Assembly (NCBI RefSeq): GCF_002234535.1
Contig: NZ_CP022521.1
Span: 186,001 to 250,000 of the forward strand
Length of the DNA: 64,000 nt
Source: Actinoalloteichus hoggarensis
GTDB taxonomy: Bacteria; Actinomycetota; Actinomycetes; Mycobacteriales; Pseudonocardiaceae
Reading direction: 5' to 3'
This document shows positions 5,224-23,074 of the stretch, in pieces. The translations under genes and the position numbers were made by a program. The notes beneath the pieces are model-generated. The model had not been told where the DNA came from, made no database searches, and worked only from the letters and a program-made list of their open reading frames with translations. The stretch's first letter is position 1, and the number at the start of each line of letters is the position of its first letter.

Positions 5224-5304
5224 GATTCTCCGACCGTGGGAGTCAGGCCGTCGGCCGCCGCACGTCTGGCGGCGCCCCGGCTCCTTGTCGACTCGGAGGA
5301 TCGA

Positions 5305-8704: not shown

Positions 8705-9580
8705 TCAGCCTGCCTGTCCCGCCGCCGCGGTCGGCCCTGCTGCCCGCCGCGCCCGGCCCGCGTGCTCCTGAGAGGTGACGTCGACGCCGTTCGCGTCGGT
8801 GACGTCGACGCCGTTCGCGTCGGCGATGACGACGGTGACGCCCCGCTCATGGAAGGGCGCCAAGTCCGCCTCGCGGGCGGAGAGATCCGTCACCAATGTC
8901 CACTGTGGCGGCATCGGCGCCCAGGCGTGGAACGGGCGCCTGCCGATCTTCGAGCCGTGGGCGAGCACGTAGACCCGTTCACCGCGGCGCGCCATGAGCT
9001 CCTTGAGTCGCGTCTGCCGGATGTCGGCCTCACAGATGCCCTCCTGCGCGGTGACGCCGTCGGCCCCGAGGAACACCCGGTCGAAGGTGCGGCGCTCCAG
9101 AGCGGCCTCGGCGAGCGGTCCGATGAAGCCGAGGCTTTTCGGTCGGAGCACGCCGCCGAGGCATTCCACCGTCACCGTGTCGGAGACGGCGAGCTCCTGG
9201 AGCGCGGTCATCCCGGTGGTGACCACGGTGAGCGCGGGCACCGAGTGCAACTCGTGCGCGAGGGCGCCGGTGGTGGTGCCCGCGTCGAGCAGCAGAGTCT
9301 CGCCCGCTCCGATCTGGCTCGCCGCCCAGCGGGCGATGGCGCGCTTGGCCTCGAACTGCTCGCCGACACGCTGGCGCAGACTGGACTCGGGATGCGCGAC
9401 CAGCGCCATGGCGCCGCCGTAGGTGCGGGCGAGCGCCCCGGACCGCTCCAGCTGAGCGAGGTCGCGACGGATGGTCGACGCGGTGACGCCGAAGTGGGCG
9501 GACAGCTCGTCGACGTTGGCGAGGCCGTTGGTGGCCATCGCCACGATGGATTCTCGACGGAGCTCGGAATCACGGGGCAC
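8705..9580 (-). CDS. DeoR/GlpR-family transcriptional regulator of the acid-sugar locus
   Basis: The 291-residue protein has the DeoR helix-turn-helix at about residues 22-50 (VDELSAHFGVTASTIRRDL) and the sugar-phosphate sensing domain with LLLDAGTTTGALAHEL, VTTGMTALQEL and FLGADGV. DeoR repressors usually respond to a phosphorylated intermediate of the pathway they control. It lies 13 bases downstream of the pdxA-like gene, so it is the last gene of the minus-strand operon and probably controls both arms of the divergent locus. The C-terminal tail is unusual: an in-frame tandem duplication repeats DANGVDVT, followed by an Ala/Gly-rich end. Confidence 0.88.
   Translation of the reverse strand: MPRDSELRRESIVAMATNGLANVDELSAHFGVTASTIRRDLAQLERSGALARTYGGAMALVAHPESSLRQRVGEQFEAKRAIARWAASQIGAGETLLLDAGTTTGALAHELHSVPALTVVTTGMTALQELAVSDTVTVECLGGVLRPKSLGFIGPLAEAALERRTFDRVFLGADGVTAQEGICEADIRQTRLKELMARRGERVYVLAHGSKIGRRPFHAWAPMPPQWTLVTDLSAREADLAPFHERGVTVVIADANGVDVTDANGVDVTSQEHAGRARRAAGPTAAAGQAG
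8775..8822. repeat. 24-bp tandem duplication inside the DeoR gene
   Basis: Two identical 24-bp units (8775-8798 and 8799-8822) lie in tandem and keep the reading frame. They encode two copies of the octapeptide DANGVDVT near the C-terminus of the regulator, outside the predicted ligand-binding fold. Confidence 0.9.
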
Positions 9581-9593
9581 GCGCTCGTCCCTC

Positions 9594-10592
9594 TCAGCCT
9601 GCGGCGGCGGGCGCCAGCTCGGCAGCCTGGCGTAGCGCCTCGATCATGCTACCGACCTCCGCGGTGCCGGTGCCCGCGATGTCGAAGGCGGTGCCGTGGT
9701 CCACCGAGGTTCGGATGACCGGCAGGCCGACCGTGATGTTGACGCCCGCCTCGATGCCGAGCACCTTCACCGGCCCGTGGCCCTGGTCGTGATACATCGC
9801 CACGATCAGGTCGTAGTCGCCGCGACCCGCCAGGAAGAAGGCGGTGTCGGCGGGCAGCGGGCCGCGGGCGTCGATGCCGTCGGCCCGCAGCCGCTCCAGC
9901 GCGGGGACGATCTTCTCCTCCTCCTCACCCTCGCCGAACAGCCCGTTCTCCCCGGCGTGGGGGTTGATCGCACACACCCCGATCACCGGGGCGTCCACCC
10001 CGGAGGCCCGAATGGCCTCGTGGCCCCGGCGGACGGTCCGCTCGACCAGCCCCGGCTCGATCTTGGCGATGGCGGCGATCAGGCCGATGTGCGTGGTCAC
10101 GTGGATGACCTTGACCTTCGGCGTCGAGAGCATCATCGACACCTCTTCGGTCCCGGTCAGCGCGGCGAGCATCTCGGTGTGGCCGGGGTAGAGGTGCCCG
10201 GCGGCGTGCAGGGCCTCCTTGTTCAGCGGGGCGGTGCAGATGGCCTGCACCTCGCCCGCCAGCGCCAACTCGGAGGCGGTGCGGATGTACTGATACGCCG
10301 CGTCGCCCGCGGTCGCGCTCAACTCACCCCAGGGCAGGTCCTCGGGCAGCAGTCCGAGGTCGATGACGTCGATGCGGCCGGGCGTGAAACGGGCGTCGCC
10401 GACCGAGTCGACTCCGACGACCTCCACCTCCACGTTCATCAGCCGGGCGGCCGCGCGGAGGCGTCGTGCGTCGCCGATCACCAGCGGGTGACACCGTTCG
10501 TACACGGTCTGGGTGGCGAGCGCGCCGACGACGACCTCTGGGCCGATGCCGGCTCCGTCCCCCATGGTGATGGCGATCACGGGCGTGCTCAC
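9594..10592 (-). CDS. PdxA-type 4-phospho-hydroxyacid dehydrogenase (PdxA2-like)
   Basis: The 332-residue protein is full length for the PdxA family: ITMGDGAGIGPEV at the N-terminus, TAPLNKEAL, the metal-site region LYPGHTEMLA, and YHDQGHGPVKVLG. PdxA proper oxidises 4-phosphohydroxythreonine in pyridoxal phosphate synthesis. PdxA2 paralogues coded beside a four-carbon acid sugar kinase and a DeoR regulator instead oxidise 4-phospho-D-erythronate or -threonate to dihydroxyacetone phosphate and CO2. The context (a kinase-like gene overlapping by 4 bases upstream, DeoR 13 bases downstream) favours the PdxA2 role. No pyridoxal phosphate genes are nearby. Confidence 0.85.
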   Translation of the reverse strand: MSTPVIAITMGDGAGIGPEVVVGALATQTVYERCHPLVIGDARRLRAAARLMNVEVEVVGVDSVGDARFTPGRIDVIDLGLLPEDLPWGELSATAGDAAYQYIRTASELALAGEVQAICTAPLNKEALHAAGHLYPGHTEMLAALTGTEEVSMMLSTPKVKVIHVTTHIGLIAAIAKIEPGLVERTVRRGHEAIRASGVDAPVIGVCAINPHAGENGLFGEGEEEEKIVPALERLRADGIDARGPLPADTAFFLAGRGDYDLIVAMYHDQGHGPVKVLGIEAGVNITVGLPVIRTSVDHGTAFDIAGTGTAEVGSMIEALRQAAELAPAAAG

Positions 10593-11431
10593 GGGTCCTC
10601 CTGATGATCGGTATGACGAGGCTGGCGGGCGATCGGGAGCAGGCTGTCCGGGCCGCCGTGGCTGCCGGGCCTGGTCACGATCTCGTGGTGGGCGCCGGTG
10701 CGGGTGCGCACGGCGCCTGGATGGACCTGGTGGAGCAGGTCGAGTCGGGTGACGCCGAGGCGGGCGGGCGCTCGGCGGGCGGTGTCACGCGGTCTGCCGA
10801 AGACCGCGGCCCGGCGCGGCGACCCGACCGCGATCACGTCGGGGACCGCCGCAGCCGCGGCGGCGATGCCATCGAGGTCGGCGCCGGTCTCCGCGTCGCA
10901 CGGAGCCACGTGCCGCGTCGCGGCCGCCTCGGCCGGGCTCGCGGCTCGGTCCGTCGGGCGCACCGCCTCGAGCCGGAGACGTCGGATCGGCGGCCCGGCG
11001 AGCGCGGCCGTGACGGACGGCGGCCGTGGCTCTGCCCGGCCGGGAACGCCCGAGTGTGCGGCGAGCACCCCGTGACCGTCCGCGGCGGCCCGACTCTCGG
11101 CGGCCAGTGCCGGCAGCGTGGGCAGGACGGGCGCGCGGGCCCCGGTGCGGACGCGCCGATCGCGCGGACCGCGCACCGTCGGCGTGATGGCTGCGCGCAG
11201 CGGCGAGCCGATCTTGAGCGACACCGGTCCTGAGACGTCGGGAACGGTCGCGTGCACGTCGGTCGACGCCGCGCCGTTGCGAGTCGCGCAATGCGCGAAA
11301 CGCGCAACATTGGCGTCTGGTGGCGTGTGGCGCACCGACGAGTCGTCGCGGCCCTCGGTCGGTGAAAGGGCTGCTCCATCTGCGCCGGCGAGGTCATCGC
11401 ACAAGGCCAGGCGGCGTCTGCCTGATCTCAT
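10589..11431 (-). pseudogene. degenerate four-carbon acid sugar kinase (DUF1537/OtnK-like), open frame but motifs lost
   Basis: The frame encodes 280 residues against about 400 normally. Family landmarks are recognisable but eroded. RLALCDDLAGADGAAL stands for the usual LADDLTGA. SLKIGSPLRAAITPTVRG stands for KIDSTLRG. ARAPVLPTLPAL, CDAETGADLDGIAAAAA with VIAVGSPRRAAVFG (for VGSAGLAAAL), and a C-terminal IVTRPGSHGGPDSLL (for VVTKAGGFGxxDSL) are also present. About 100 residues around the TGGDTA nucleotide-binding motif are missing; only RDTARRAPARLGVTRLDLL remains. The ATGA overlap with the pdxA-like gene shows its ancestral operon position. It was probably an erythronate or threonate 4-kinase and is probably inactive now. 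I assign the family from memory of its motifs, without an alignment. Confidence 0.55.
11292..11306. promoter_or_regulatory. palindrome TGCGCGAAACGCGCA, possible DeoR site
   Basis: A perfect 6-3-6 inverted repeat lies within the 5' part of the degenerate kinase frame. It shares the TGCGCGAA core with the repeats at 11467-11503, so it could be a further site for the DeoR regulator. Confidence 0.4.
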
Positions 11432-11466
11432 GGATGCCTCCTCTCGGGCTGATCTATTACGTGTTC

Positions 11467-11503
11467 TGCGCGAATCACGCTATCGGTGTTGCGCATATCA
11501 CGC
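11467..11503. promoter_or_regulatory. direct repeats in the divergent promoter region, candidate DeoR operator
   Basis: TGCGCGAATCACGC (11467-11480) and TGCGCATATCACGC (11490-11503) differ at two positions and start 23 bases apart, about two helical turns. They lie between the divergent kinase remnant and the ABC importer, where the locus regulator should bind. DeoR proteins often use repeated half sites. Confidence 0.55.
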
Positions 11504-11577
11504 AAGCGTGCTTGGGTGGCGCTCCAGCAGGTGGTGCTCCACGGGCGACGGCGCCCGAGGGCAACGGAGGTTGGCGA

Positions 11578-13143
11578 ATGCAGACGAAGATGTCCCGGAG
11601 AGCGCTGCTCAAGGCCTTGGGCGTCACAGGCGGCGCGCTGGCCGCGGGCGCGCTCACCGGATGCGCGGGTCCGACCGGCGGACCACCCCCCGGCTCGGTG
11701 ACGCTCGGCCTCAACCGGTCGCTCGTCTCGCTCGACAACAAGCTCAACCAGTTCGACGCCGCGGTGACCGTCCAGCGGGCCGTCCGGCAGGGGCTGACCC
11801 GCATCGGCCCGGACCTGGCGCCGATCCCCGTCCTGGCCGAGCGCTTCGAGCTGACCGCGCCCACCCAGTGGACGGTGCGCCTGCGCGAGGGCGTGCGGTA
11901 CTCGGACGGAACGCCGATCGAGATCGCCGACGTCGAGACGGCGCTGGCGATGTATCGGCAGGTCAGCGGCTCCTATCTGGCCGCGTTCTTCCCCGAGTGG
12001 CCCGAGGTCGTGCCCATCGACGAGCACACCTTCACCCTGGAGACGAACCACCCGCTGCCCGTCCTCGACTACCTGATGGCGAACATCCTGATCACTCCCG
12101 CGGCCGCCAACGTGCCCGAGGAGCTCCAGACCGGCGTCGGCAGCGGCCCTTACCGCGTGACCGCGTCGAACCGGGGGACCGGCGACTACACGTTGCGCCG
12201 CAACGAGAACTACTGGGCCGACCGCCCCCGGGTGGAGCAGGTGCAGGTCCGGTTCATGCCGGAGGAGTCCAACCGCGTCGTCTCCCTGCGCTCCGGGGAG
12301 ATCGACGTCATCGACACGATCAGCCCCGACTCCGCGGAACAGCTCCAGGGCCTCCCCGACATCCGCATCGACCAGGTCAAGGGAACCCGGCTCAACCAGC
12401 TCTTCTACAACTTCCGCAAACCCTCGGACCATCCGCTGTCGAGGGCGTCGGTCCGGCAGGCGTTGTCCTTCGCCATCGACGGCAGGCGGCTGGCCGAGGA
12501 CATCCTCGCCGGCTCCGTGGAGGCCGCGCGAGGTCCGGTGGCGGAGACGCTCAACGGGTCCGTCGTCTGCGGCGAGTACGCCTACGACCCCCGGCGGGCC
12601 AAGCAGATGCTCGAGGCCGAGGGGATCGCCGACGGCGATCTGCGGCTGACCCTGATCTGGGAGACCGGCGAGTTCGCCAGCGACACCACCGTCATGGAGG
12701 CGGTGGTGCAGATGCTCGGCGACGTGGGCGTGCCCGTCCGCCTCCGACAGTTCGAGCCGGGTGGCGACATCTCCGAATGGCGGCAGGGCCGCGGCGGGGA
12801 CTGGGACGTCCTCGGCAACGGCTATGCCTCCCCGGTGGGCGCCGCTCTGCCGATCCTTCAGGGGATGTACGGCGGGACCCCGGAGCGCGAACGCACCCGC
12901 GACACCTACCACGGCTACGTCAACCCCCAGGTCGTCGCGCTGCTCGACGAGGCCTACGCGGAGGTCGACGCCGACCGGCGTCAGGAGATCACCGCCGAGC
13001 TGCAACAGGTGGTGTGGGACTCCTGGCCGAGCATGTGGGCCTTCGTCCCGAACTCGGTGCTCGCCTACCGACGGCGGATCAGCGACGTGGGACTGGAACC
13101 GACCAACTCCTACGAGCTCGCGCGCATCGGTCTGGAGGCGTAG
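11578..13143 (+). CDS. oligopeptide-type ABC transporter substrate-binding lipoprotein
   Basis: The 521-residue protein starts at 11578 behind GGAGG with 8-base spacing. The signal peptide has an SRRALLKALG motif compatible with Tat export and a lipobox LTGC (about residue 27). The mature part is an SBP_bac_5 (DppA/OppA class) protein: LAERFELTAPTQWTVRLREG, RYSDGTPIEIADVETAL, TISPDSAEQLQG, SRASVRQALSFAIDGRRLAE. This class binds peptides but also nickel, opines and some oligosaccharides. It is the first gene of a ten-gene plus-strand operon with acid-sugar enzymes, so a sugar conjugate is as likely a ligand as a peptide. Confidence 0.85.
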   Translation: MQTKMSRRALLKALGVTGGALAAGALTGCAGPTGGPPPGSVTLGLNRSLVSLDNKLNQFDAAVTVQRAVRQGLTRIGPDLAPIPVLAERFELTAPTQWTVRLREGVRYSDGTPIEIADVETALAMYRQVSGSYLAAFFPEWPEVVPIDEHTFTLETNHPLPVLDYLMANILITPAAANVPEELQTGVGSGPYRVTASNRGTGDYTLRRNENYWADRPRVEQVQVRFMPEESNRVVSLRSGEIDVIDTISPDSAEQLQGLPDIRIDQVKGTRLNQLFYNFRKPSDHPLSRASVRQALSFAIDGRRLAEDILAGSVEAARGPVAETLNGSVVCGEYAYDPRRAKQMLEAEGIADGDLRLTLIWETGEFASDTTVMEAVVQMLGDVGVPVRLRQFEPGGDISEWRQGRGGDWDVLGNGYASPVGAALPILQGMYGGTPERERTRDTYHGYVNPQVVALLDEAYAEVDADRRQEITAELQQVVWDSWPSMWAFVPNSVLAYRRRISDVGLEPTNSYELARIGLEA

Positions 13144-13145
13144 AG

Positions 13146-14081
13146 GTGCTCCGATACGTCCTGAAGCGACTCGGCCAGAGCGTCCTGGTCGTCATGCTCA
13201 CCGTCTCGACGGTCTTCGTGCTGATCCGGATGGCACCGGGCGACCCCGCGACGGCCTTCGCCGCGCCGAACGCCACCACCGAGGACCTCGCCGAGATCCG
13301 CACCCAGCTCGGACTCGACGGCTCGATCGGCTCGCAGTACCTGACCTTCCTCGGGCAGCTGTTCACCGGCGACCTCGGGACCTCGTACTCGTTCCGGGCC
13401 CCCGCCTTCGACGTGGTCCTGGAACGGGTGCCCTACACGATCACGCTGGCGTCGGCGGCGATCCTGTCGACCGCCCTCATCGCCCTCCCGCTGGGCATCT
13501 GGATGGCGAGCCGGGCCGACACCGCTCGGGAGACCGGCGCGAACATCGCGACCGTCGCGGCGCAGTCGATGCCGGAGTTCTGGAGCGGCATCATGCTGCT
13601 CACCGTCTTCTCCGTCCTGCTCCCGGTGCTGCCGTCGTCCGGCTTCACCACCTGGGGCGGGCTGGTGCTGCCCGCGGTCACCGTCGCGCTGCTCCAGATC
13701 GCGTTGATCTCCCGGCTGGTCCGCCGCGAGATGGTCTCCAACCTGACCGCGCCCTACCTGACGGTCGCCCGCGCGCACGGCTTCGGCGAACGCCGTCTCG
13801 TGTGGGGCTACGCGCTGGGCAACTCGATGATCCCGGTGCTCACCGCGCTGGGCACCCGCTTCGCCGCGATGCTCAACGGCGTGGTCGTGGTGGAGGTCGT
13901 GTTCGCCTGGCCGGGCGTCGGCTCCCTGGTCGTGCGGGCGTTGGAGACGCGCGACTATCCGCTGATCCAGGCGACGGTGCTGGTCACCGCCGCGCTCGCG
14001 ATCCTCGTCCAGCTCCTCATCGACCTGGTGTACCCGCTGCTCGACCCGCGGGTTCGGCTCGGAAAGGGCACGGCGCGATGA
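13146..14081 (+). CDS. ABC transporter permease, DppB/OppB type
   Basis: The 311-residue membrane protein starts at a GTG (13146) 3 bases after the binding-protein stop. It has about six transmembrane helices, the DppB-type opening RYVLKRLGQSVLVVMLTVST and the inner-membrane coupling motif near MVSNLTAPYLTVARAHGFGE. It forms the channel with the DppC-type protein whose gene overlaps its end by 4 bases (ATGA). Confidence 0.88.
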   Translation: MLRYVLKRLGQSVLVVMLTVSTVFVLIRMAPGDPATAFAAPNATTEDLAEIRTQLGLDGSIGSQYLTFLGQLFTGDLGTSYSFRAPAFDVVLERVPYTITLASAAILSTALIALPLGIWMASRADTARETGANIATVAAQSMPEFWSGIMLLTVFSVLLPVLPSSGFTTWGGLVLPAVTVALLQIALISRLVRREMVSNLTAPYLTVARAHGFGERRLVWGYALGNSMIPVLTALGTRFAAMLNGVVVVEVVFAWPGVGSLVVRALETRDYPLIQATVLVTAALAILVQLLIDLVYPLLDPRVRLGKGTAR

Positions 14082-14977
14082 CCACCACCTCACCCGAGAC
14101 CCGGCCGAGCCGGGTGACCGCCCGACAACTGCGCGACGCCGGGGTCGCCCGCCGCGCGCGCACCGCCAAGGCCAAGACCTGGATCGGCGCGCTGCTCACC
14201 GCCCTCGTCGTGCTGCCCATCCTGCTGGCCGACCTGCTGCCGCTTCCGGACGCCGACGAACAGGACCTCGGCTCGCGTCGCCTGCCGCCCCTGACCGACG
14301 GACACCTGTTCGGCACCGACCAGCTCGGCAGAGACCTGCTGGCCAGGATCCTCGACGGGGGCCAGGTCTCGGTCCTCATCGGCGTACTGGCCGTCGTCGT
14401 CTCCGGCCTGATCGGCCTCGTCGCGGGCGCGGCGGCAGGCTACTTCGGGGGCTGGGTCGACGCGGTCGTCTCCCGACTGCTCGAAGCCCAGATGTCGCTG
14501 CCGCTGCTGATGATGCTGCTGTTGGTCGTCGCACTCTTCGGCCCGTCGATCCCGGTCATCACCGCCGTCATCGCCATCGCCCAGTGGCCGGAGGTCGCCA
14601 GGCTGACGCGGTCGATGGTGATCGTCGAACGCGAGAAGCCGTATGTGGACGCCGCCAGGACCCTCGGGCTGACCCACTCCGGCGTGCTGTTCCGGCACCT
14701 GGTGCCCAACGTCGTCCGGCAGACCAGCCTCGTCGTGCTCCTGCTGCTGGCACAGGCCGTCCTGCTGGAGAGCGCGTTGAGCTACCTCGGCGCGGGACCG
14801 GAACGCCCCTACGCCACCTGGGGCCGGCTGATCTCCGACGGGCAGGACTACGTCACGACGTCCTGGTGGCTGGTGACGCTGCCCGGACTGGTGATCGTGC
14901 TGCTCGTGGTGGGAGTGAACCTGCTCGGCGACGGACTCCGGGACCGCACGCGCGGCAGGAAGGGAGTCACGGCATGA
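14078..14977 (+). CDS. ABC transporter permease, DppC/OppC type
   Basis: The 299-residue protein has an Arg/Lys-rich cytoplasmic N-terminus, a first helix at about residues 38-58, the family motif HLFGTDQLGRDLLARI (about residues 76-91) and the coupling loop EKPYVDAARTLGLTHSGVLF. It pairs with the preceding permease. Its ATG overlaps the previous stop (ATGA) and its own stop overlaps the next ATG, showing strict translational coupling. Confidence 0.88.
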   Translation: MTTTSPETRPSRVTARQLRDAGVARRARTAKAKTWIGALLTALVVLPILLADLLPLPDADEQDLGSRRLPPLTDGHLFGTDQLGRDLLARILDGGQVSVLIGVLAVVVSGLIGLVAGAAAGYFGGWVDAVVSRLLEAQMSLPLLMMLLLVVALFGPSIPVITAVIAIAQWPEVARLTRSMVIVEREKPYVDAARTLGLTHSGVLFRHLVPNVVRQTSLVVLLLLAQAVLLESALSYLGAGPERPYATWGRLISDGQDYVTTSWWLVTLPGLVIVLLVVGVNLLGDGLRDRTRGRKGVTA

Positions 14978-15780
14978 GCCGGATCGTGGACGTCGAAGAC
15001 CTGCAGATCGAACTGGTCACCGCCGACGGCGTGGTGCGCGCCGTCGACGGGGTATCGCTGCACATCGACGCGGGCGAGACCGTGACCCTGATCGGCGAGT
15101 CCGGTTCGGGGAAGTCGACCACGGCGATGGGGCTGCTGCGGCTCCTGCCCGCGGAACTGGCCGTGCTCTCCGGCCGGGCGATGCTGGCGGGCCACGACGT
15201 CGTGGCCGACCCCGCGTCGATCGCCGCACTGCGAGGCCGCGTCGTCGGACTGATCCCGCAGGATCCGATGACCGCGCTGAGCCCGGTGGAGACGATCGGC
15301 CGCAGGCTGACCAAGCTCGTCCGGCTCCGTGATCCGGGCACCGGCCGACAGGCCGCGCGGGCCAGGGCGGCGGCGCTGCTGGAGAGCGTGCGCGTCCCCG
15401 ACCCGGCGTGGCTGCTCGACCGCTATCCGCACCAGCTCTCAGGCGGACTCCAACAGCGGGTCCTGATCGCCTGCGCGCTCACCGGCGAGCCGGAACTGCT
15501 CGTCGCCGACGAGCCGACCAGCGCCCTGGACGTCACCGTGCAGGCGGGCGTGCTCGACCTGCTGATGGAACTGCAGGAGCGCACGGGCGTCGCGATCCTG
15601 ATGATCACCCACGACATCGGCGTGGCCCGACTGGTCTCCGACCGGGTGCACGTGATGCGGGCGGGTCGCTTCGTGGAGAGCGGCGACGTCGAAGAGGTGG
15701 TGGACGCCCCGAGGCATCCCTACACCCGGCAGCTGCTGGCCTCGGTGCCCCGACTCGTCGCGAAGGAGGGACGGGCATGA
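14974..15780 (+). CDS. ABC transporter ATP-binding protein, DppD/OppD type
   Basis: The 268-residue ATPase has Walker A GESGSGKST (about residues 39-47), a Q-loop in LIPQDPMTALSP, the signature HQLSGGLQQRVLIACAL, Walker B LLVADEPTSALD and the switch His in MITHDIGV. It lacks the long C-terminal Cys cluster of OppD, ending soon after HPYTRQLLASVPRL, so it is a short version. It overlaps both neighbours by 4 bases. Confidence 0.88.
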   Translation: MSRIVDVEDLQIELVTADGVVRAVDGVSLHIDAGETVTLIGESGSGKSTTAMGLLRLLPAELAVLSGRAMLAGHDVVADPASIAALRGRVVGLIPQDPMTALSPVETIGRRLTKLVRLRDPGTGRQAARARAAALLESVRVPDPAWLLDRYPHQLSGGLQQRVLIACALTGEPELLVADEPTSALDVTVQAGVLDLLMELQERTGVAILMITHDIGVARLVSDRVHVMRAGRFVESGDVEEVVDAPRHPYTRQLLASVPRLVAKEGRA

Positions 15781-16625: not shown

Positions 16626-17575
16626 CGACCGGCACCCCCAGACTGGTCCTGGGGACGATGACGTTCGGGGACACCGTCTCGGCGACCGACGCCGAGCGGC
16701 TGCTGGATGCGGCGCTCGACGCGGGCATCACCGACGTCGACACCGCCAACGGGTACGCCAAGGGCACCACCGAGGAACTGCTCGCCCCGCTGATCTCCCG
16801 ACGCCGCGACCGGATCAGGCTGGCCACCAAGGCCGGAATGCCGCATCCGGACGCGGGTGAGCACTCGCCCTTGTCGCCCGCGGGACTGCGGGCGAGCGTC
16901 GAGGGCAGCCTCCGCAGGCTCGGCGTCGACCACATCGACCTCTTCTACCTGCACCAGCCGGACGCCGCCGCCCGGCCCGAGGACACGATGCGGACGGTCG
17001 CGGAACTCGTCGAGGAGGGCAAGATCCGCGGCCTCGGCGTGTCCAACTTCGCGGCCTGGCAGATCGTCGAGCTGAACCGGATCGCCGACCAGCTCGGCAC
17101 GCCCCGGCCCGTCATCGCCCAGCAGCTCTACAACCTGCTGGCCAGGCGGATCGACGAGGAGTACTCCGCGATGGCCGCCGCGACCGGACTGGACACGGTC
17201 GTCTACAACCCGCTCGGCGGCGGACTGCTCACCGGACGGCACCGCTTCGACAGCACCCCCGGCAGCGGCCGGTTCGGCGACTCGGTGCTGGCCGGGATGT
17301 ACCGGCAGCGCTACTGGGACGCCCAGCTCTTCGAGGCGGTCGACGCACTCGCGTCGATCGCGGCCCGGGCAGGCGTGCCGCTCACCGAGCTGGCGCTGCG
17401 CTGGCTGCTGTCCCGTCCGGTCGTCGACGCCGTGCTGCTCGGCGCCTCCCGGCTGGACCACCTCACCTCGAACATCGACGCGCTGGGCCGGGGTCCGCTG
17501 CCGGACGACGTCGTCGCCGCCTGCGACGACGTCGGTGCCCGGCTGCGTGGACCGATGCCCGCCTACAACCGCTGA
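16622..17575 (+). CDS. aldo/keto reductase
   Basis: The 317-residue (alpha/beta)8 NADPH-dependent oxidoreductase begins LVLGTMTFGDTVSATDAERL. The conserved residues are visible: Asp in ITDVDTANGYAKG with the catalytic Tyr of the NGY motif, Lys in IRLATKAGM and His in DLFYLHQPD. GVSNFAAWQI and VYNPLGGGLLTGRH are also characteristic. Such enzymes interconvert sugar aldehydes or ketoses and alcohols. Being translationally coupled to an importer and an aldolase suggests action on the imported sugar or on the aldehyde released by the aldolase. Confidence 0.88.
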   Translation: MTTGTPRLVLGTMTFGDTVSATDAERLLDAALDAGITDVDTANGYAKGTTEELLAPLISRRRDRIRLATKAGMPHPDAGEHSPLSPAGLRASVEGSLRRLGVDHIDLFYLHQPDAAARPEDTMRTVAELVEEGKIRGLGVSNFAAWQIVELNRIADQLGTPRPVIAQQLYNLLARRIDEEYSAMAAATGLDTVVYNPLGGGLLTGRHRFDSTPGSGRFGDSVLAGMYRQRYWDAQLFEAVDALASIAARAGVPLTELALRWLLSRPVVDAVLLGASRLDHLTSNIDALGRGPLPDDVVAACDDVGARLRGPMPAYNR

Positions 17576-17599
17576 GAACGAACAAGGAGCACCACTGTC

Positions 17600-18367
17600 A
17601 TGAGCGCACTCGACTTCGCCCGCCGCATCCGCGACCGGGAGCAGGCCGTCGGCTACTGGGTCGTGCTGGACGACCCGATCGCCACCGAGCGGCTCGCTCG
17701 GCTCGGCTACGACTACGTGGCCGTCGACGCCCAGCACGGGCTGCTCGGCTACGAGGGCATCCGCAACGCGATGCTGGCCATCGACGCCGGGGCGGCCTCG
17801 GCCGCCATGGTGCGGGTCGAGCAGAACGATCCCTTCGCCATCGGTCGGGTGCTCGACGCGGGCGCCACCGGCGTGATCGTCCCGCTGATCGACACGGCCG
17901 AGGACGCGGCGGCAGCGGTGCGCTCCACCCGTTATCCCCCGCACGGACGTCGTTCGTACGGGCCGATGCGGGCGCAGCTGCGGGTCGGCCCGACGCCCGC
18001 CGTCTCCGACGAGGCCACTCTGGTGCTGGCGATGATCGAGACGCCGGAGGGACTGGCCAACGTCGCGGAGATCTGCGCGACGCCCGGCCTGGACGGCGTC
18101 TACGTCGGGCCCTCCGACCTGCGGCTCGCGGTCGGCGGCGCCACGTCCACCGATCCGGCCGTCGACGGGCCCTTCGAGGAGGCCGTCACCAGGATCGCCG
18201 AGGCGGCCTCGGCCGCCGGGATCGCCGCGGGCATCCACACCCCGAACGGCGAGGTCGCCCGGCGTCGACTCGCCCAGGGATACACCTTCGCCTCGGTGGC
18301 CTCCGACCTCGTGCACCTGGAGCAGGCGGCGAAGGCCCACCTGAACGCCGCGCGGGGCGAGCAGTGA
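17600..18367 (+). CDS. HpcH/HpaI-family class II aldolase
   Basis: The 255-residue TIM-barrel protein carries the family landmarks. These are YVAVDAQHGLLGYEG (His base; Gln replaces the more common Glu), GVIVPLIDTAEDA, RRSYGP, the metal ligands in MIETPEGLANV and GVYVGPSDL, and GIHTPNGEVARRRLAQGY. These Mg/Mn enzymes cleave 4-hydroxy-2-oxoacids, including 2-keto-3-deoxy sugar acids, to pyruvate and an aldehyde. With the enolase-superfamily enzyme downstream as a candidate dehydratase, the pair would fit a dehydratase-aldolase route for an acid sugar (inference). Confidence 0.87.
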   Translation: MSALDFARRIRDREQAVGYWVVLDDPIATERLARLGYDYVAVDAQHGLLGYEGIRNAMLAIDAGAASAAMVRVEQNDPFAIGRVLDAGATGVIVPLIDTAEDAAAAVRSTRYPPHGRRSYGPMRAQLRVGPTPAVSDEATLVLAMIETPEGLANVAEICATPGLDGVYVGPSDLRLAVGGATSTDPAVDGPFEEAVTRIAEAASAAGIAAGIHTPNGEVARRRLAQGYTFASVASDLVHLEQAAKAHLNAARGEQ

Positions 18368-19542
18368 GCGTCCTGCGCGAGACGGGGCGGGGGCTGGCCG
18401 AGGCCAGCCTCGTCGCCCCGGTCGCGCAGTCGCATGCGGCGAACCTCGCCGTGCTGCCCGACGGCGACCTGGGCTGTGTCTGGTTCGGCGGCACGCAGGA
18501 GGGCGTGCACGACATCCGGATCTGGTTCGCGCGACTGGGCCCCAACGCGACCACCTGGTCCGACCCGGTCGCGTTGACCGACGACCCGGAGCGCTCCGAG
18601 CAGAACCCGCTGCTCTTCCACGCCCCGGACGACAGCCTCTGGCTGTTCTGGACCGCGCAGCACGCGGGCAGGCAGGACACGGCCGAGGTGCGCGTTCGTC
18701 GTTCCGTCGACAGCGGGCGCAGCTGGGACGAACCACGGGTCCTGCTGCCCGCCGACGAGCGCGGCGGCGTGTTCATCCGGCAGCCCGTGCAGGTCACGGC
18801 CGAGGGAACCTGGCTGCTGCCGACGTTCTCCTGTCGAATCCCCGCGACCGGCACCTGGTCCGGCGGCGAGGACACCAGCGCGGTGTACGCGAGCGACGAC
18901 GGCGGGACGAGTTGGACCCGCCACGACGTGCCCGGCAGCCGGGGCGCGGTGCACATGAACGTGCTGCCCGCCCAGGACGGCTACGTCGCGCTCTACCGGA
19001 GTCGGTTCGCCGACGCGATCCACGCCAGTGGTTCGTCCGACGGTGTGCGCTGGTCCGAGCCCGTGGCGACGGACCTGCCCAACAACAACTCCTCGGTGCA
19101 GGCGACGCGGCTCCGCGACGGCAGGCTAGCCCTGGTCTACAACGCGAGCAGCGCCGCCGAGGCGAGCCATCGGCGCGCGGGTCTCTACGACGAGGTCGAC
19201 GAGCACGGCGCGCTGGCAGGCCGGGAACGTCCTGCCGTGGCCGTCGAGCCCGGCGGCGTCGCCGACCGACGGGAGGCCTTCTGGGGCGCTCCTCGGGCGC
19301 CGATCGCGCTGGCCACCTCGTCCGACGACGGACGCACCTGGCGGCGGCACCCCGACCTGGCTCAGGGCGAGGGCACCTGCCTGACCAACAACTCGCGCGA
19401 CGGGCTCAACCGGGAGCTGTCCTATCCCTCGATCGTCGAGGACCCGCAGGGCCGGGTGCACGTCGCCTACACCCATCACCGCTCGTCCATCCGGCACGTC
19501 CGCATCGAACCGGACTGGCCGGGCTGGCAGGAGGCCCGATGA
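18364..19542 (+). CDS. cytoplasmic sialidase-like (Asp-box beta-propeller) protein
   Basis: The 392-residue protein starts at a GTG overlapping the aldolase stop (GTGA). It has at least three Asp-box motifs of the S-x-D-x-G-x-T/S-W type: RRSVDSGRSWDE, YASDDGGTSWT and SSDDGRTWRR, and TRLRDGRLALVYN between blades. This is the six-bladed propeller of the sialidase/BNR-repeat superfamily. No signal peptide is present, so it should act inside the cell on an imported glycoside rather than on external glycans. True sialidase activity is not proven; relatives include other exo-acting glycosidases and lyases. Confidence 0.75.
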   Translation: MSVLRETGRGLAEASLVAPVAQSHAANLAVLPDGDLGCVWFGGTQEGVHDIRIWFARLGPNATTWSDPVALTDDPERSEQNPLLFHAPDDSLWLFWTAQHAGRQDTAEVRVRRSVDSGRSWDEPRVLLPADERGGVFIRQPVQVTAEGTWLLPTFSCRIPATGTWSGGEDTSAVYASDDGGTSWTRHDVPGSRGAVHMNVLPAQDGYVALYRSRFADAIHASGSSDGVRWSEPVATDLPNNNSSVQATRLRDGRLALVYNASSAAEASHRRAGLYDEVDEHGALAGRERPAVAVEPGGVADRREAFWGAPRAPIALATSSDDGRTWRRHPDLAQGEGTCLTNNSRDGLNRELSYPSIVEDPQGRVHVAYTHHRSSIRHVRIEPDWPGWQEAR

Positions 19543-20480
19543 GCCGCACACTGATCACCACGCCGACCTTCGGCCGCTACTCCGCGACGCCGTGGGACCT
19601 GCTGCGCGACGCAGGCGTCGACGCCCGCCGACCTCGTGAGGACGGGCCGCTGCCCCGCGCCGAGCTGTTGGAGCAGGTGCCCGCGGCCGAGGCGTTGATC
19701 GTCGGCCTCGACACCATCGACCGGGCGGTCTTCGAGGCCGCGCCCCGGTTGAAGGTCGTCGCCAAGCACGGCGTCGGCTACGACAACATCGACCTCGACG
19801 CCGCGCGGGATCACGGCGTGCGGGTGGTCTACGCGCCGGGCAGCAACTCGCGGGCTGTCGCGGAGCTGACCTTCGGGCTGCTGCTGGACGTGGCCCGAGG
19901 CATCTCGGCCAACGACCGGGCCGTCCGTGCGGGCGGCTGGCCGAAGACCTTCGGCGTCGAACTCGCGGGCCGTCGTCTCGGCGTCGTCGGCTTCGGCCGG
20001 ATCGGGAGGCTGATGGCCGGCTACGCCACCGCCTTCGGGATGTCCGTCGTGGCACACGACCCGTTCGTGCCCGCCGACGGCTTCGGCGACGTTCCCTCGG
20101 TCGACCTCGACACCGCGATCGCCTGCGACGTGGTCAGCCTGCACCTGCCCGCCGTGCCCGGCTCCGGTCCGCTGCTCGACCGCGCCCGGCTGGAATCGAT
20201 GCGGCCGGGCGCGATCCTGCTCAACGCGGCCCGAGGCGGCCTCGTCGACGAGGCGGCGGCGGCCGAGCTGCTGCACAGCGGGCACCTGGCGGGCGCGGGC
20301 TTCGACGCCTTCGCCGTCGAGCCGATCGGCGACGGTCCGCTGTCGACGGCGCCGAACGTGGTGCTCACCGCACACATCGGGGCGTGCAGCCGCGAGGCCA
20401 ACGAGGCGATGGGCGTCGCCGTGGTCGAAGGCGTGCTGAGCGTGCTCGGCGGCCGCGAGCCGCGTCATTCCGCTTTCTAG
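19539..20480 (+). CDS. D-2-hydroxyacid dehydrogenase (SerA-like)
   Basis: The 313-residue protein has the NAD-binding Rossmann motif GVVGFGRIGRL (about residues 147-157), the catalytic Arg in LLNAARGGLVDE, the Glu region DAFAVEPIGDGPL and the His in HIGACS. PGSNSRAVAELTFGLLLDVAR is typical of phosphoglycerate dehydrogenase-like enzymes. It lacks the C-terminal ACT domain of biosynthetic SerA, which supports a catabolic role on a hydroxy acid. Its ATG overlaps the preceding stop by 4 bases. The substrate is unknown; a product of the aldolase or of acid-sugar oxidation is possible. Confidence 0.87.
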   Translation: MSRTLITTPTFGRYSATPWDLLRDAGVDARRPREDGPLPRAELLEQVPAAEALIVGLDTIDRAVFEAAPRLKVVAKHGVGYDNIDLDAARDHGVRVVYAPGSNSRAVAELTFGLLLDVARGISANDRAVRAGGWPKTFGVELAGRRLGVVGFGRIGRLMAGYATAFGMSVVAHDPFVPADGFGDVPSVDLDTAIACDVVSLHLPAVPGSGPLLDRARLESMRPGAILLNAARGGLVDEAAAAELLHSGHLAGAGFDAFAVEPIGDGPLSTAPNVVLTAHIGACSREANEAMGVAVVEGVLSVLGGREPRHSAF

Positions 20481-20507
20481 AAGGCCAGACATCGAAGAGG
20501 ATCACCC

Positions 20508-21668
20508 ATGAAGATCGATCGCATCAGGATCGACAAGGCCAGGTTCGACATGGTGGACTTCGCCAAGCATCCGACCGGCTTCTCCCTGGTCTACGAGCCG
20601 GGCAGCCGGAAGCCGACCAGTGCCTACGCCATCCGCGTCTACACCGACGAGGGCGTGACGGGCGGCTACGTCGGCGGCAACGCGATCGCCGCCGCCCAGG
20701 TGCGGATGTTCGGCGACTACCTGATCGGCAAGAACCCGTTGCAGCGCGAGCTGATCTACAACGACGTCAAACGGCAGCTCCGCAAGTTCGACAAGATGGG
20801 CATGGGCTTCGTCGACATCGCGCTCTGGGACCTCGCCGGACACGCGCACGACGCCTCGATCCGCACCCTCCTCGGCGGCTGGAAGACACGGCTGCCCGCC
20901 TACGCCTCGACGGCGGCGGGTGACCGCAACGGCGGGCTGGACAGCCCGGAGGCCTATGCGGACTTCGCCGTGGCGTGCAAGGACCTCGGCTATCGGGCCT
21001 ACAAGCTGCATGTGTGGGACGAGTACGAGGTCGCCGAGGTCGTCCGTACCATCCGGAAGGTCCGGGAGGCAGTCGGCCCGGAGATGGATCTGATGCTGGA
21101 CCCGGGCTGCAAGCTGGAGACCTTCGCACACGCGGTCCAGGTCGGCCGGGCCTGCGACGAGGCGGACTTCCTGTGGCTGGAGGATCCGTACAAGGACACC
21201 GGGATCTCGATCTTCGGGCACAAACGACTCCGTGAGCTGATCCGCACTCCGCTGCTCCAGACCGAGCACGTACGGGGGCTGGAGCAGCACGTCGACTTCG
21301 TCGTCGGCGGCGGAACCGACTTCGTACGCGCCGACGCGGAGTACGACGGCGGCATCACCGGCGCGTTGAAGATCGCGCATGCCACCGAGGGCTTCGGACT
21401 CGACGTCGAGCTGCACACCCCCGGGCCCGCGCAGCGGCAGCTGATGGCCTCGCTGCGCAACACCAACTACTACGAGATGTCCTTCGTCCACCCGAAGTCG
21501 AGCGAGATCGGCCGCAGCCAGCTCGTCTACGCGGACGACTATCGCGACGGGCTCACCGCCGTCGACTCCGAGGGCTGCGTGCCGGTGCCCGAGGGCAACG
21601 GACTCGGCGTGACCTACGACTGGGACCTCATCGAGGCGAACACCGTCGAGACCATGGAGTTCTCCTGA
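20508..21668 (+). CDS. enolase-superfamily (mandelate racemase/muconate lactonizing-like) enzyme
   Basis: The 386-residue protein has the capping domain (YAIRVYTDEGVTGGYVGGN) and a barrel with the metal ligands Asp in LMLDPGC, Glu in FLWLEDPYKD and Glu in LLQTEHV. A catalytic K-x-H pair sits in YRAYKLHVWD, and a later His lies in DVELHTPGP. Such enzymes abstract the proton alpha to a carboxylate; many members in sugar-acid operons are dehydratases making 2-keto-3-deoxy acids. That would supply the HpcH/HpaI aldolase encoded in the same operon. The exact sugar acid cannot be read from sequence. Confidence 0.85.
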   Translation: MKIDRIRIDKARFDMVDFAKHPTGFSLVYEPGSRKPTSAYAIRVYTDEGVTGGYVGGNAIAAAQVRMFGDYLIGKNPLQRELIYNDVKRQLRKFDKMGMGFVDIALWDLAGHAHDASIRTLLGGWKTRLPAYASTAAGDRNGGLDSPEAYADFAVACKDLGYRAYKLHVWDEYEVAEVVRTIRKVREAVGPEMDLMLDPGCKLETFAHAVQVGRACDEADFLWLEDPYKDTGISIFGHKRLRELIRTPLLQTEHVRGLEQHVDFVVGGGTDFVRADAEYDGGITGALKIAHATEGFGLDVELHTPGPAQRQLMASLRNTNYYEMSFVHPKSSEIGRSQLVYADDYRDGLTAVDSEGCVPVPEGNGLGVTYDWDLIEANTVETMEFS

Positions 21669-23074
21669 TGGCCGGCAAGACGGCGAGAGCCGAACAGCCC
21701 GACCTGTACGCGCTGCGCGCCGAGGACGTGCAGGAGCCGCCCACCACCCTGCGGGGCAGGCTGCGGTACCTCGGGCCGGGCATGATCCTCTCCGCGGCGG
21801 TGATCGGCTCCGGCGAGTTGATCCTCACCACCTCCCTCGGCGCGCGGGCGGGCTTCGCGCTGATGTGGCTGATCATCGTCGCCACGACGGTGAAGGTCTG
21901 GGTGCAGATGGAGCTCGGGCGGCTGACCGTCTTATACGGACGGCCCGCGCTCGAGGCGTTCAGCGACGTCGCCCCGCGCACTCGGCGCGGCAGCTGGATC
22001 AACTATCTGTGGATCGGCATGGACTTCGCCAAGATGTTCCAGCGCGGCGGGATCATCGGCGGAGCGGCGGCGGCCTGCTCGATCCTGTTCCCGATCGTCG
22101 GCGAACCGTTGAGCAGGGAGTCCACCACGGTCTGGTGCGTGGTGATCGTGGTGATCACGATCGCGATCCTCCAGAGCAGCAAGTACTCCATCGTCGAGAC
22201 CGCCTCGGTGATCGCCGTGGCGATGTTCACGATGATCACCGTCGGACTCGCCCTGGCACTGCCGTTCACCGAGTTCGGCTGGAGCATGGGTGACATCGCG
22301 GGCGGCCTGGAGCTGGCCGTGCCCGTGGGGGCGCTGGGTCTGGCCGTCGCGATGTTCGGCTCGACCGGGGTCGGCGCCGACGAGATGACGACCTACACCT
22401 ACTGGTGCATGGAGAAGGGCTACGCCCGGTGGACGGGACCCGCCGACGGCACCCCGGAGCGGGATCGGCGTGCGGAGGGCTGGCTCAAGGTCATGCGACT
22501 GGACGTCGCGGTGTCCTGGCTGGTCTGCACGATCTGCACGGTGGCCTTCTACATCATCGGCGCGTCCGTGCTGCATCCACAGGGACTCGTGCCCGAGGGC
22601 AACGAGATGATCACCACCCTGTCGCGGATGTACACCGACACGATCGGCGGCTGGGCGGAGATCGTCTTCCTGGTCGGTGCGATCGCCGTGCTGTTCTCGA
22701 CGAACATCGGCTCGACGGCGAGCGTGCCGAGGCTCTGGACGAACACGCTGGGCATCATCGGGGTGCTGGACTGGAAGAACCCCGAGGTGCGACGCAAGAC
22801 GATCCGGCTGCTCACCTTCTGCTTCCCGCCGTTGTGGGCGTCGTTCTATCTGTTCGTCCAGTCGCCGGTGCTGATGGTGCAGATCGGCGGCATCGGATCC
22901 GGTGTCTTCCTGATCGCCGTGGTCATCGGCGTGTGGTACCTGCGAACCAAGGAACCGGACAAGCGGTTCCGGCCCAATCCGTTCATCACCGGGGCGCTGG
23001 TGGTGAGCAGCATCGCCATCATGGCGTTGGGCGTGTACTCGGCGTTGGAGGTCTTCGGCATCTCGATCGGCTGA
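21668..23074 (+). CDS. Nramp-family-related permease lacking metal-site motifs
   Basis: The 468-residue protein has about 11 predicted transmembrane helices and the Nramp-like start YLGPGMILSAAVIGSGELIL. In true Nramp metal transporters, helix 1 carries DPGN and helix 6 carries MPH(N/S). Here the matching segments read VIGSGE and FGSTGVGADEM, so the Asp, Asn, Met and His of the metal site are absent. It is translationally coupled (TGATG) to the enolase-superfamily gene and is last in the catabolic operon, followed by a strong terminator. A role in taking up or exporting an organic acid or an untypical cation is plausible; divalent-metal uptake is doubtful. Confidence 0.75.
   Translation: MAGKTARAEQPDLYALRAEDVQEPPTTLRGRLRYLGPGMILSAAVIGSGELILTTSLGARAGFALMWLIIVATTVKVWVQMELGRLTVLYGRPALEAFSDVAPRTRRGSWINYLWIGMDFAKMFQRGGIIGGAAAACSILFPIVGEPLSRESTTVWCVVIVVITIAILQSSKYSIVETASVIAVAMFTMITVGLALALPFTEFGWSMGDIAGGLELAVPVGALGLAVAMFGSTGVGADEMTTYTYWCMEKGYARWTGPADGTPERDRRAEGWLKVMRLDVAVSWLVCTICTVAFYIIGASVLHPQGLVPEGNEMITTLSRMYTDTIGGWAEIVFLVGAIAVLFSTNIGSTASVPRLWTNTLGIIGVLDWKNPEVRRKTIRLLTFCFPPLWASFYLFVQSPVLMVQIGGIGSGVFLIAVVIGVWYLRTKEPDKRFRPNPFITGALVVSSIAIMALGVYSALEVFGISIG

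Follow-up and report, generated by a model that had tools for sequence, protein, structure and literature searches.

The window, by which we mean the whole 64,000-nucleotide stretch of DNA analysed here, contains at positions 8705-23074 a locus that probably serves as an operon for the breakdown of a 3-deoxy-2-keto diacid resembling sialic acid. The most likely substrate is 3-deoxy-D-lyxo-hept-2-ulosaric acid (Dha) of pectin rhamnogalacturonan II (RG-II), and judging from gene content we put the probability of this reading at about 55%. RG-II is a conserved and very complex domain of pectin, and Dha is a rare sugar in it. In the accessible parts of two reports, Dha is termed a seven-carbon sialic acid analogue (PMC6811678) and in plants is exclusive to RG-II (PMC12168206). 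It is proposed that a family-5 ABC importer would take up the Dha conjugate as a small glycoside or oligosaccharide, a cytoplasmic BNR_2 protein would release Dha, and an HpcH aldolase would split Dha (C7) into pyruvate (C3) and D-threo 2,3-dihydroxy-4-oxobutanoate (C4). An aldo/keto reductase (AKR) would convert the C4 aldehyde to D-threonate, a DUF1537 kinase would form D-threonate 4-phosphate, and its oxidation and decarboxylation by PdxA2 would give DHAP and CO2. We infer the substrate and the first four steps from the genes, and the last two would follow the published D-threonate pathway. Since the aldehyde reductase and the tetronate kinase need a carboxylate-bearing fragment, the substrate should be a diacid, and C5 and C6 of a D-lyxo acid would give the configuration of D-threonate (derived by hand). 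Because a 3-deoxy-2-ulosaric acid is already 2-keto-3-deoxy, no dehydratase would be necessary to make the aldolase substrate. A search of the open literature found no printed bacterial route for RG-II Dha after its release, nor any paper on this gene set or on heptulosaric acid together with threonate; the accessible part of a paper on human N-acetylneuraminate lyase (PMC13220900) does not treat Dha.

Organization of the locus

Verification of coordinates and families gave 14 genes, three on the minus and 11 on the plus strand, the latter with intergenic gaps of at most 27 bases. The sequence-only reading had counted ten plus-strand genes; its gene families, largest gap and divergent deoR/PdxA/kinase arrangement agreed with our measurements and Pfam scans. 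The minus strand carries a DeoR-family regulator (deoR, 8705-9580; DeoRC and HTH_DeoR above the Pfam cut-off), a PdxA2-like dehydrogenase (pdxA, 9594-10592; Pfam PdxA 350 bits) predicted to be a D-threonate 4-phosphate dehydrogenase, and a dead remnant of a DUF1537 (four-carbon acid sugar) kinase in an open 280-aa frame (10589-11431). On the plus strand the importer comprises a family-5 solute-binding lipoprotein (SBP_bac_5, 11578-13143; 204 bits), two BPD_transp_1 permeases (13146-14081, with GTG at 13146 as the first usable start by inspection, and 14078-14977) and two ATPases (14974-15780, ABC_tran and oligo_HPY; 15777-16625, ABC_tran). A peptide or nickel importer as such was rejected, as the listed NikA/Opp NCBIfam models were all under cut-off for the binding protein and the first permease. 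It is followed on the plus strand by the AKR (16622-17575; Pfam), whose predicted role is the reduction of the C4 aldehyde acid, yielding D-threonate, the HpcH/HpaI (GarL-like) aldolase (17600-18367; Pfam 121 bits), predicted to cleave a 3-deoxy-2-ulosaric acid, and the BNR_2 protein of GH33 sialidase fold (18364-19542; 204 bits), a predicted ulosaric-acid (Dha) glycosidase. An accessory module completes the locus: a D-2-hydroxyacid dehydrogenase (HDH, 19539-20480; 2-Hacid_dh_C 157 bits), an enolase-superfamily acid-sugar dehydratase (20508-21668; MR_MLE_C 139 bits) and an Nramp-like permease (21668-23074; Nramp 66 bits).

Recurrence of the gene set and its last steps

The 80 loci surveyed are the best BNR_2 matches and are related, not independent. 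In the 64 actinobacterial loci of at least 19 kb holding a BNR_2 gene, a DUF1537 kinase was found near it in 61, PdxA in 61, AKR in 62 and HpcH in 55 (absent from nine), whereas each of the four occurred in 0/20 control stretches, drawn from four genomes all of the source organism's own family, which gave only one ATPase and two SDR hits. On these counts chance assembly of the set was rejected. The earlier reading had proposed a single catabolic locus with its own importer, and had held that a neighbourhood analysis would speak against it if the genes were rarely together; the genes do group around BNR_2, which supports the proposal. That reading, which named PdxA and the decayed kinase, missed that both belong to the core of the locus, and with them in the core the aldehyde would most likely end as D-threonate and then DHAP.

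It was confirmed that the local kinase is decayed. Compared with the open 414-aa frame of a relative (G297, locus L010), in which both domains exceed the cut-off, the remnant lacks the motif that reads KIDSLLRGN there and most of the nucleotide-binding domain, and its C-terminal end gives a weak NBD_C match (E 2.7e-4, 21.9 bits; Pfam cut-off 28.3). No kinase was detected in another relative (G296, locus L011). An adjacent intact kinase, though usual in the actinobacterial loci, is wanting in the present locus. A second DUF1537/PdxA/KdgT-type locus (L107) elsewhere in the same genome seems to be the plain known form of the D-threonate pathway, and its kinase could supply the phosphorylation step, the local copy being dead. 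Zhang et al. (2016) reportedly described this pathway with the DUF1537 kinase DtnK and PdxA2. The accessible part of one source gives D-threonate kinase and 4-phospho-D-threonate dehydrogenase leading to DHAP, with KdgT as importer (PMC10079672), and that of another also covers DtnK and PdxA2 (PMC10971088). The PdxA of the locus scored 491 against 4jqp, 316 against 2hi1 (PdxA 2) and 301 against 6e85 (D-threonate 4-phosphate dehydrogenase), the next PdxA entries reaching at most 192. Among NCBIfam models it exceeds the general pdxA (vitamin B6) cut-off (362 vs 290) and falls under that of the D-threonate equivalog (348 vs 583), whereas the PdxA of a BNR_2 cluster in Pantoea (L100) passes both (363 vs 290; 658 vs 583). 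For all four kinases scanned the best NCBIfam model was D-threonate kinase, under its cut-off.

Most proteobacterial loci that were read keep the kinase, PdxA and BNR_2, with an iron-containing alcohol dehydrogenase (iron ADH) in place of AKR and a NanA/DHDPS-type aldolase in place of HpcH. In 16 plasmid loci, selected by us and read individually, a DHDPS-family aldolase is annotated in 15, and tblastn found iron ADH in 14, PdxA in 14 and the kinase in 12. Two loci (L076, L079) have HpcH-family hits (32-34% identity) together with iron ADH, so that one enzyme type seems able to stand in for the other at both the aldolase and the reductase step. L098 and L109 have neither kinase nor PdxA nor iron ADH nearby, and L100 has no kinase. 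The cluster, found here in an actinobacterium of soil type, is thus shared with many bacteria associated with plants and soil; versions of it lie on pSymB of Sinorhizobium meliloti and pAt of Agrobacterium fabrum GV3101.

DeoR, a candidate repressor for both divergent units, has a homologue in 57 of these 64 actinobacterial loci. The divergent promoter region contains tandem operator-like sites, TGCGCGAATCACGCT and TGCGCATATCACGCA, 23 bp apart at 11467-11504. The genome holds a single copy of this tandem pattern, and a similar tandem pair was found in 47/72 upstream regions as compared to 12/1420 random pieces, the motif having been picked after viewing the data.

The sialidase-fold protein, the accessory module and rival explanations

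The predicted structure of BNR_2 (pLDDT 92) is a single-domain, six-bladed propeller of the sialidase fold; its Foldseek matches are sialidases (TM up to 0.77 by target length), and hhalign against a profile of ten RIP-type proteins from the same bacterial class gave 99%. Tyr354 aligns with the GH33 Tyr nucleophile and is identical in 108/108, and the invariant Arg214 and Arg311 align with two Arg of the GH33 triad. The catalytic Glu of GH33, the partner of Tyr, is replaced by His197 (His in 108/108), and the RIP Arg falls opposite Leu16, near the N-terminus where the alignment is weak, with no RIP motif in the protein. Given these two differences, BNR_2 may not be a glycosidase. No hydrophobic stretch precedes the first propeller strand in 107/107 homologues, which supports the cytoplasmic location suggested earlier.

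The invariant His would also suit an anomerase or lactonase acting on the free imported acid, with importer and aldolase handling a monosaccharide. Sodium:solute symporters or Nramp-like permeases beside BNR_2 in some loci, most without an ABC importer, suggest such a small substrate. Against this, Tyr354 and the two Arg are invariant, and two Pantoea loci have a separate YhcH gene directly after BNR_2 whose nearest model is a sialic-acid anomerase; we consider this explanation unlikely. Equally, the same enzymology could serve a substrate other than pectin Dha. This might be a 3-deoxy-2-ulosaric acid from bacteria or algae, or a different conjugate that yields an aldol fragment reducible to D-threonate. 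Sequence cannot reveal substrate specificity, importers vary among BNR_2 loci (ABC, SSS, Nramp-like), and Dha occurs also in the scales of prasinophyte algae, as given in the accessible part of PMC6930497. The plasmid matches, in a collection that is itself uneven, are mostly from Rhizobium, Sinorhizobium, Pantoea and Agrobacterium, which speaks against another substrate. We also know of no other natural sugar with the carbon count and stereochemistry of Dha, and there is perhaps one chance in a handful for this alternative. A sialic acid pathway (Neu5Ac, Kdn or Kdo) with misjudged end steps would account for the sialidase fold and the NanA-family aldolase of the proteobacterial loci; family-5 binding proteins, moreover, can carry sialic acid. 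Cleavage of a mono-acid, however, gives mannosamine, mannose or arabinose, useless to the tetronate kinase/PdxA pair, and NanE, NanK, NagA and NagB are not among the 14 genes. Canonical sialic acid catabolism was rejected, and the wider alternative is disfavoured as highly improbable.

The sequence-only reading had the enolase dehydrate an acid sugar to a 2-keto-3-deoxy acid for HpcH cleavage. Its import, intracellular sialidase-fold protein and aldolase split were retained, as were an acid sugar as likely substrate and pyruvate and an aldehyde as likely products, but a place for the enolase in the core was not supported. It occurs in just 4/64 actinobacterial and 0/16 plasmid loci, and in eight of 200 family genomes as compared to 27 with BNR_2; the core exists without it. 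Enolase, HDH and Nramp-like permease make up an accessory module without a place in the proposed route, so that a dehydratase-first core is upheld only in part. On the other side, all eight enolase carriers among the 200 also have BNR_2 (Fisher p 4e-8, kinship ignored), and in G454 and G398 (L128, L129) the genes for Nramp, HDH, AKR, HpcH and enolase are joined in a single unit. The kinase, too, was undetected only with HDH/Nramp (3/8 actinobacterial loci of at least 19 kb vs 0/56 without). This is mere association and was rejected as proof that the module replaces the kinase, one locus (L017) having neither detected kinase nor enolase in its 21 kb. A dehydratase-first main route is in our view distinctly unlikely. 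The enolase matches 1rvk, 4hcd and 4mmw, and has the MR_MLE fold with KLH, MLD, LEDP, TEH and ELH aligned to 1rvk, positions which we take to hold the Lys, the Asp-Glu-Glu metal ligands and the catalytic His. Nine listed NCBIfam substrate-class models were all under cut-off, and a search of 296 sampled phylum genomes at E <= 1e-60 found the enolase itself only. An SDR gene follows BNR_2 in many relatives and has no role in the proposed route; its strict exclusion with the HDH/Nramp module was clean in the first 91 loci and was broken by L128, which has both.

Several points weigh against the Dha route itself: the nine loci without HpcH, a PdxA under the D-threonate cut-off, L098 and L109 without kinase, PdxA and iron ADH, L100 without the kinase, the His for Glu and unaligned RIP Arg of BNR_2, a closest solved aldolase of hydroxyketoacid type, and an SDR and accessory module outside the route.

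Comparison with known systems

A more far-reaching reading, to which we give somewhat less than even odds, is that Actinomycetota and Pseudomonadota share a Dha pathway via internal D-threonate. Cytoplasmic Dha hydrolases with the GH33 fold would then form a new family, and two branches of the Nramp superfamily would have switched from metals to acid sugars as cargo, the first following BNR_2 in most ABC-less actinobacterial loci and the second accompanying the HDH/enolase module. The cluster offers candidate genes for each step of Dha breakdown and a possible natural source of D-threonate, and its versions in S. meliloti and A. fabrum make the route testable in tractable strains. If the route is right, the label 'exo-alpha-sialidase' on such BNR_2 proteins and that of metal transporter on such Nramp-like permeases would be misleading across many genomes.

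With the class II aldolases GarL and HpaI, its nearest curated NCBIfam models, the aldolase shares the HpcH_HpaI family, but it is under both cut-offs (163 bits vs 407 for GarL, 2-dehydro-3-deoxyglucarate aldolase). Its PDB matches are 6r62 and 1dxe, the closest solved aldolase being a hydroxyketoacid aldolase. Glucarate/galactarate genes were not recognised alongside HpcH here, and the GarL glucarate pathway was rejected. The Nan systems likewise have an importer, a sialidase fold, a pyruvate-releasing aldolase and, as in Pantoea, a YhcH-type anomerase; here, in contrast, the Nan and Nag enzymes named above are missing, the aldehyde would become a four-carbon acid and the sialidase-fold protein is cytoplasmic. 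The D-threonate pathway shares the kinase/PdxA pair, as reflected in the model ranked first for the four kinases and in the Pantoea PdxA. The present locus adds to that pair an importer, a protein of sialidase fold, an aldolase and an aldehyde reductase, so that D-threonate would arise inside the cell. Nramp metal-ion transporters have DPGN in TM1 and MPH in TM6. Our permease is above the Pfam Nramp cut-off but, aligned with solved MntH/Nramp chains, has IGSGE at MDPGN and no MPH, in a context of acid-sugar catabolism; one subfamily of such metal-motif-less proteins follows BNR_2 in 7/9 actinobacterial loci with an empty ABC importer slot. BNR_2 would share its substrate, Dha, with the GH143 Dha hydrolase of Bacteroides thetaiotaomicron, but the latter, in the accessible part of its description, belongs to a bimodular enzyme whose five-fold site is described as unlike those of other sialidases (PMC6811678), whereas BNR_2 is a single domain modelled with the GH33 fold.

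Layout and conservation of the locus

The window corresponds to G000:C1:186001-250000 of a host genome of 6.6 Mb in a single contig, and the gene positions of the sequence-only reading agree with the re-examined coordinates. That reading counted ten plus-strand genes; the count is 11, spanning 11578-23074, and the tight packing it described holds (overlaps of 1-4 bases, otherwise gaps of 2, 24 and 27 bases). The opposite strand carries deoR and pdxA, together with an open frame of 280 aa. This frame had been called a decayed kinase and is indeed a DUF1537 kinase remnant, having the NBD_C tail only, with a weak match. The same-genus locus L010 (G297) carries an intact kinase frame of 414 aa with both SBD_N and NBD_C above cut-off, and its motif reads KIDSLLRGN vs KIGSPLRAA in the window copy; in the other same-genus locus, L011 (G296), the kinase was not detected. 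A 935-aa frame at 5236-8043 (+), with a hydrophobic stretch and an RRRK-type tail at its end, looks by eye like a cell-wall-anchored extracellular nuclease.

The sialidase-fold gene BNR_2 (18364-19542, +) was taken as the anchor because it is the oddest member of the locus. It was found in 8 of the 60 relatives searched, including the window's own genome (E <= 1e-30). In the 20-kb surroundings of the 7 other BNR_2 genes deoR, pdxA, AKR and HpcH were each present in 7/7, the kinase in 6/7 (missing from L011) and the ABC importer in 5/7. When named genome contigs were searched using profile A1, at least 570 relatives were confirmed. The best 80 of these were analysed, gene presence being called by tblastn searches in which reference proteins from the cluster served as queries (E <= 1e-12). 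Kinase, PdxA, AKR, HpcH and permeases were found in 75, 74, 69, 65 and 64 of these 80 loci, in 67, 67, 62, 57 and 57 of the 70 that reach 19 kb and in 61, 61, 62, 55 and 57 of the 64 actinobacterial loci of that length, HpcH thus missing from 9 of the last; the counts are not independent events because the 80 loci are best matches and mutually related. Twenty control stretches of 20 kb, at fixed positions in four genomes of the window's own family, gave 0/20 by tblastn for each of the five, with an ABC ATPase match in 1/20 and an SDR match in 2/20. The genes recur together, against the rarity that would have refuted the sequence-only reading, and it can be said with very high confidence that the locus is a conserved catabolic unit. 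An SDR match occurs in 54 of the best 80 loci; an SDR oxidoreductase stands 3' of BNR_2 in many relatives (L014, L024, L025, L034 and others), with none there in the window.

Between the divergent units lie two operator-like sites, TGCGCGAATCACGCT (11467-11481) and TGCGCATATCACGCA (11490-11504), spaced by 23 bp. A similar tandem was found in 47/72 importer upstream regions vs 12/1420 random pieces from the same loci, a contrast that is descriptive since the pattern was picked after inspecting those upstream regions. The genome as a whole contains a single instance of the specific tandem pattern. Inside the dead kinase gene, TGCGCGAAACGCGCA (11292-11306) resembles the half-sites of the operator and gives a match, with 2 mismatches, on either strand.

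The sialidase-fold protein

The structure model of BNR_2 (pLDDT 92) was compared by Foldseek, and nearly all of the 50 matches listed were sialidases, TM reaching 0.77 by target length (0.70 by query) with 1eus; an Aspergillus Kdnase came at rank 41 and the uncharacterised 5hx0 at ranks 44 and 48. A profile built from ten RIP- and Asp-box-bearing proteins of the same bacterial class gave 99% in hhalign. In GH33 enzymes a Tyr nucleophile, a Glu and an Arg triad have functional roles. Tyr354 aligns with the nucleophile, and Arg214 and Arg311 with two members of the triad; His197 occupies the position of the Glu, and the RIP Arg falls on Leu16, where the alignment is weak towards its end. Tyr354, Arg214, Arg311 and His197 are invariant in 108/108 sequences, a few organisms being counted twice (L012/L019, L018/L127). 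The protein is of GH33 fold but has no Glu there and probably no RIP Arg, and is for that reason labelled sialidase-like; it is predicted to be a glycosidase for another ulosonic-type acid. Elsewhere in the genome, L175 (G000:C1:2725994-2726902) encodes another BNR_2 protein, which has four Asp boxes as well as a RIP motif and is likely a true GH33 sialidase.

The cytoplasmic placing in the sequence-only reading is most likely right, judging from the protein sequences, because a ten-residue hydrophobic run upstream of the first propeller strand was found in 0/107 homologues; the run seen in three of them is the first propeller strand itself.

Variation in importer, aldolase and accessory genes

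The Nramp-like protein of the window passes the cut-off of the NCBIfam divalent metal transporter model; its IGSGE aligns with MDPGN of a solved MntH/Nramp protein, and MPH is absent. A second Nramp-like subfamily, above the Pfam cut-off in 4/4 members scanned (L015, L020, L022, L029), lies 3' of BNR_2 in nine loci (L012, L019, L015, L020-L023, L029, L038), and the permeases of L015, L020-L023 and L029 lack the DPGN/MPH motifs. No ABC importer was detected in any of the nine. Leaving out L038, which starts just upstream of BNR_2, and counting L012 and L019 as one organism, the combination is found in seven organisms, three of them Saccharopolyspora. Seen from the other side, kinase and AKR adjoin with no ABC importer between them in nine actinobacterial organisms, 7/9 of which have the second-subfamily gene; L030 and L071 have neither. 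An ABC permease was detected in 71 of the loci L010-L100; in none of these was the second subfamily found at >=60% identity, the sole match being L013, at 26%, to a window-type Nramp-like gene. As it stands where the ABC importer is missing and is absent where that is present, the distribution suggests that the second subfamily imports the substrate.

Aldolase and reductase also vary. In the plasmid collection 297 records had a match, chiefly from Rhizobium (128), Sinorhizobium (78), Pantoea (27) and Agrobacterium (17), and annotation was read in 16 of the 297 loci, picked for variety among the matches listed (one, L114, is from a record marked unverified organism). An aldolase of the dihydrodipicolinate-synthase family, the fold family of NanA, was annotated in 15/16 (all but L098) and detected by tblastn in 13/16. 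By tblastn PdxA and an iron-containing alcohol dehydrogenase were each found in 14 of the 16 and the DUF1537 kinase in 12, with HpcH and AKR in 0/16; kinase, PdxA and the alcohol dehydrogenase are all absent from the stretches of L098 and L109. In L076 (Bradyrhizobium) and L079 (Bosea) an HpcH-family match of 32-34% identity occurs together with the iron-containing alcohol dehydrogenase. BNR_2, kinase and PdxA are thus accompanied by one or the other of two mutually unrelated aldolases, and likewise by one or the other of two unrelated reductases. In the Pantoea loci L098 and L100 a YhcH protein lies directly 3' of BNR_2; the best NCBIfam model for the one scanned was N-acetylneuraminate anomerase (86 bits vs a cut-off of 160). 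A fructuronate reductase lies ~6 kb from BNR_2 in L100.

The sequence-only reading had the acid split by dehydratase and aldolase. Dehydration of a C4-C7 acid sugar feeding HpcH is still the likeliest role of the enolase-superfamily enzyme, but among the best 80 of the at least 570 loci this enzyme occurs in only 4, HDH and the window-type Nramp in 8. In 200 family genomes the enolase (E <= 1e-100) was found in 8 and BNR_2 in 27, and 8/8 enolase genomes carry BNR_2 within ~13 kb (Fisher p 4e-8, kinship ignored). A separate unit in L128 and L129 joins Nramp, HDH, AKR, HpcH and enolase, so the product of the dehydratase may go to the same aldolase. In actinobacterial loci of at least 19 kb the kinase was undetected in 3/8 with HDH/Nramp vs 0/56 others. 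D-threonate is one candidate dehydratase substrate, as some AraD enzymes show D-threonate dehydratase activity according to PMC10079672.

Predicted route and substrate

The window PdxA scored 491 bits against 4jqp, 316 against 2hi1 (PdxA2) and 301 against 6e85 (D-threonate 4-phosphate dehydrogenase), the remaining PdxA entries of the PDB giving <=192 bits. In NCBIfam it is over the cut-off of the general pdxA model (362 vs 290) and under that of the D-threonate model (348 vs 583); the PdxA of Pantoea L100 exceeds both, scoring 658 vs 583 on the latter. For 4/4 kinases scanned, three from BNR_2 clusters (L013, L097, L099) and that of L107, the best model was D-threonate kinase, all under cut-off. 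Conversion of D-threonate to DHAP by kinase and dehydrogenase is described in PMC10079672, where the D-threonate importer is credited to Zhang et al. 2016; DtnK is named in PMC10971088.

An aldolase and an aldehyde reductase ahead of a D-threonate kinase imply that the aldolase fragment would be a C4 aldehyde already bearing a carboxylate, and therefore that the imported parent would be a C7 3-deoxy-2-keto diacid; the reductase would then give D-threonate, and kinase and PdxA would give DHAP. We put the probability that aldolase, reductase, kinase and PdxA lead to DHAP via D-threonate at about three in four. In the window the kinase is dead, and its genome has two further DUF1537 genes. L107 (G000:C1:1832000-1851999) combines a DUF1537 kinase with PdxA and a KdgT permease, the layout of the known D-threonate locus, and is a second, plain D-threonate-type locus, so D-threonate from the dead-kinase locus could still be used. 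In L106 (G000:C1:3050500-3070499) the DUF1537 gene is accompanied by frames of class II aldolase type and of GntP type, judged by eye; this locus also has a DeoR-like regulator and resembles erythronate/threonate loci.

The stereochemistry was worked out by hand: in a Fischer projection of D-lyxo Dha, C5 (left) and C6 (right) correspond, once the acid is turned, to its C3 and C2, which makes it D-threonate. Dha is the predicted substrate, a choice we favour by a little over even odds. It is described as a seven-carbon analogue of sialic acid (PMC6811678), confined in plants to RG-II (PMC12168206), within a side-chain disaccharide borne by the pectin backbone (PMC12282258), and contained also in prasinophyte algal scales (PMC6930497). 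In the open literature covered, in part for the wider topics, no description was found of heptulosaric acid or Dha catabolism with threonate or aldolase, or of this gene set; one may exist elsewhere, since subscription papers lie mostly outside that literature. Cleavage of the related acids Kdo, Kdn and Neu5Ac would yield neutral or amino sugars, unlike that of Dha.
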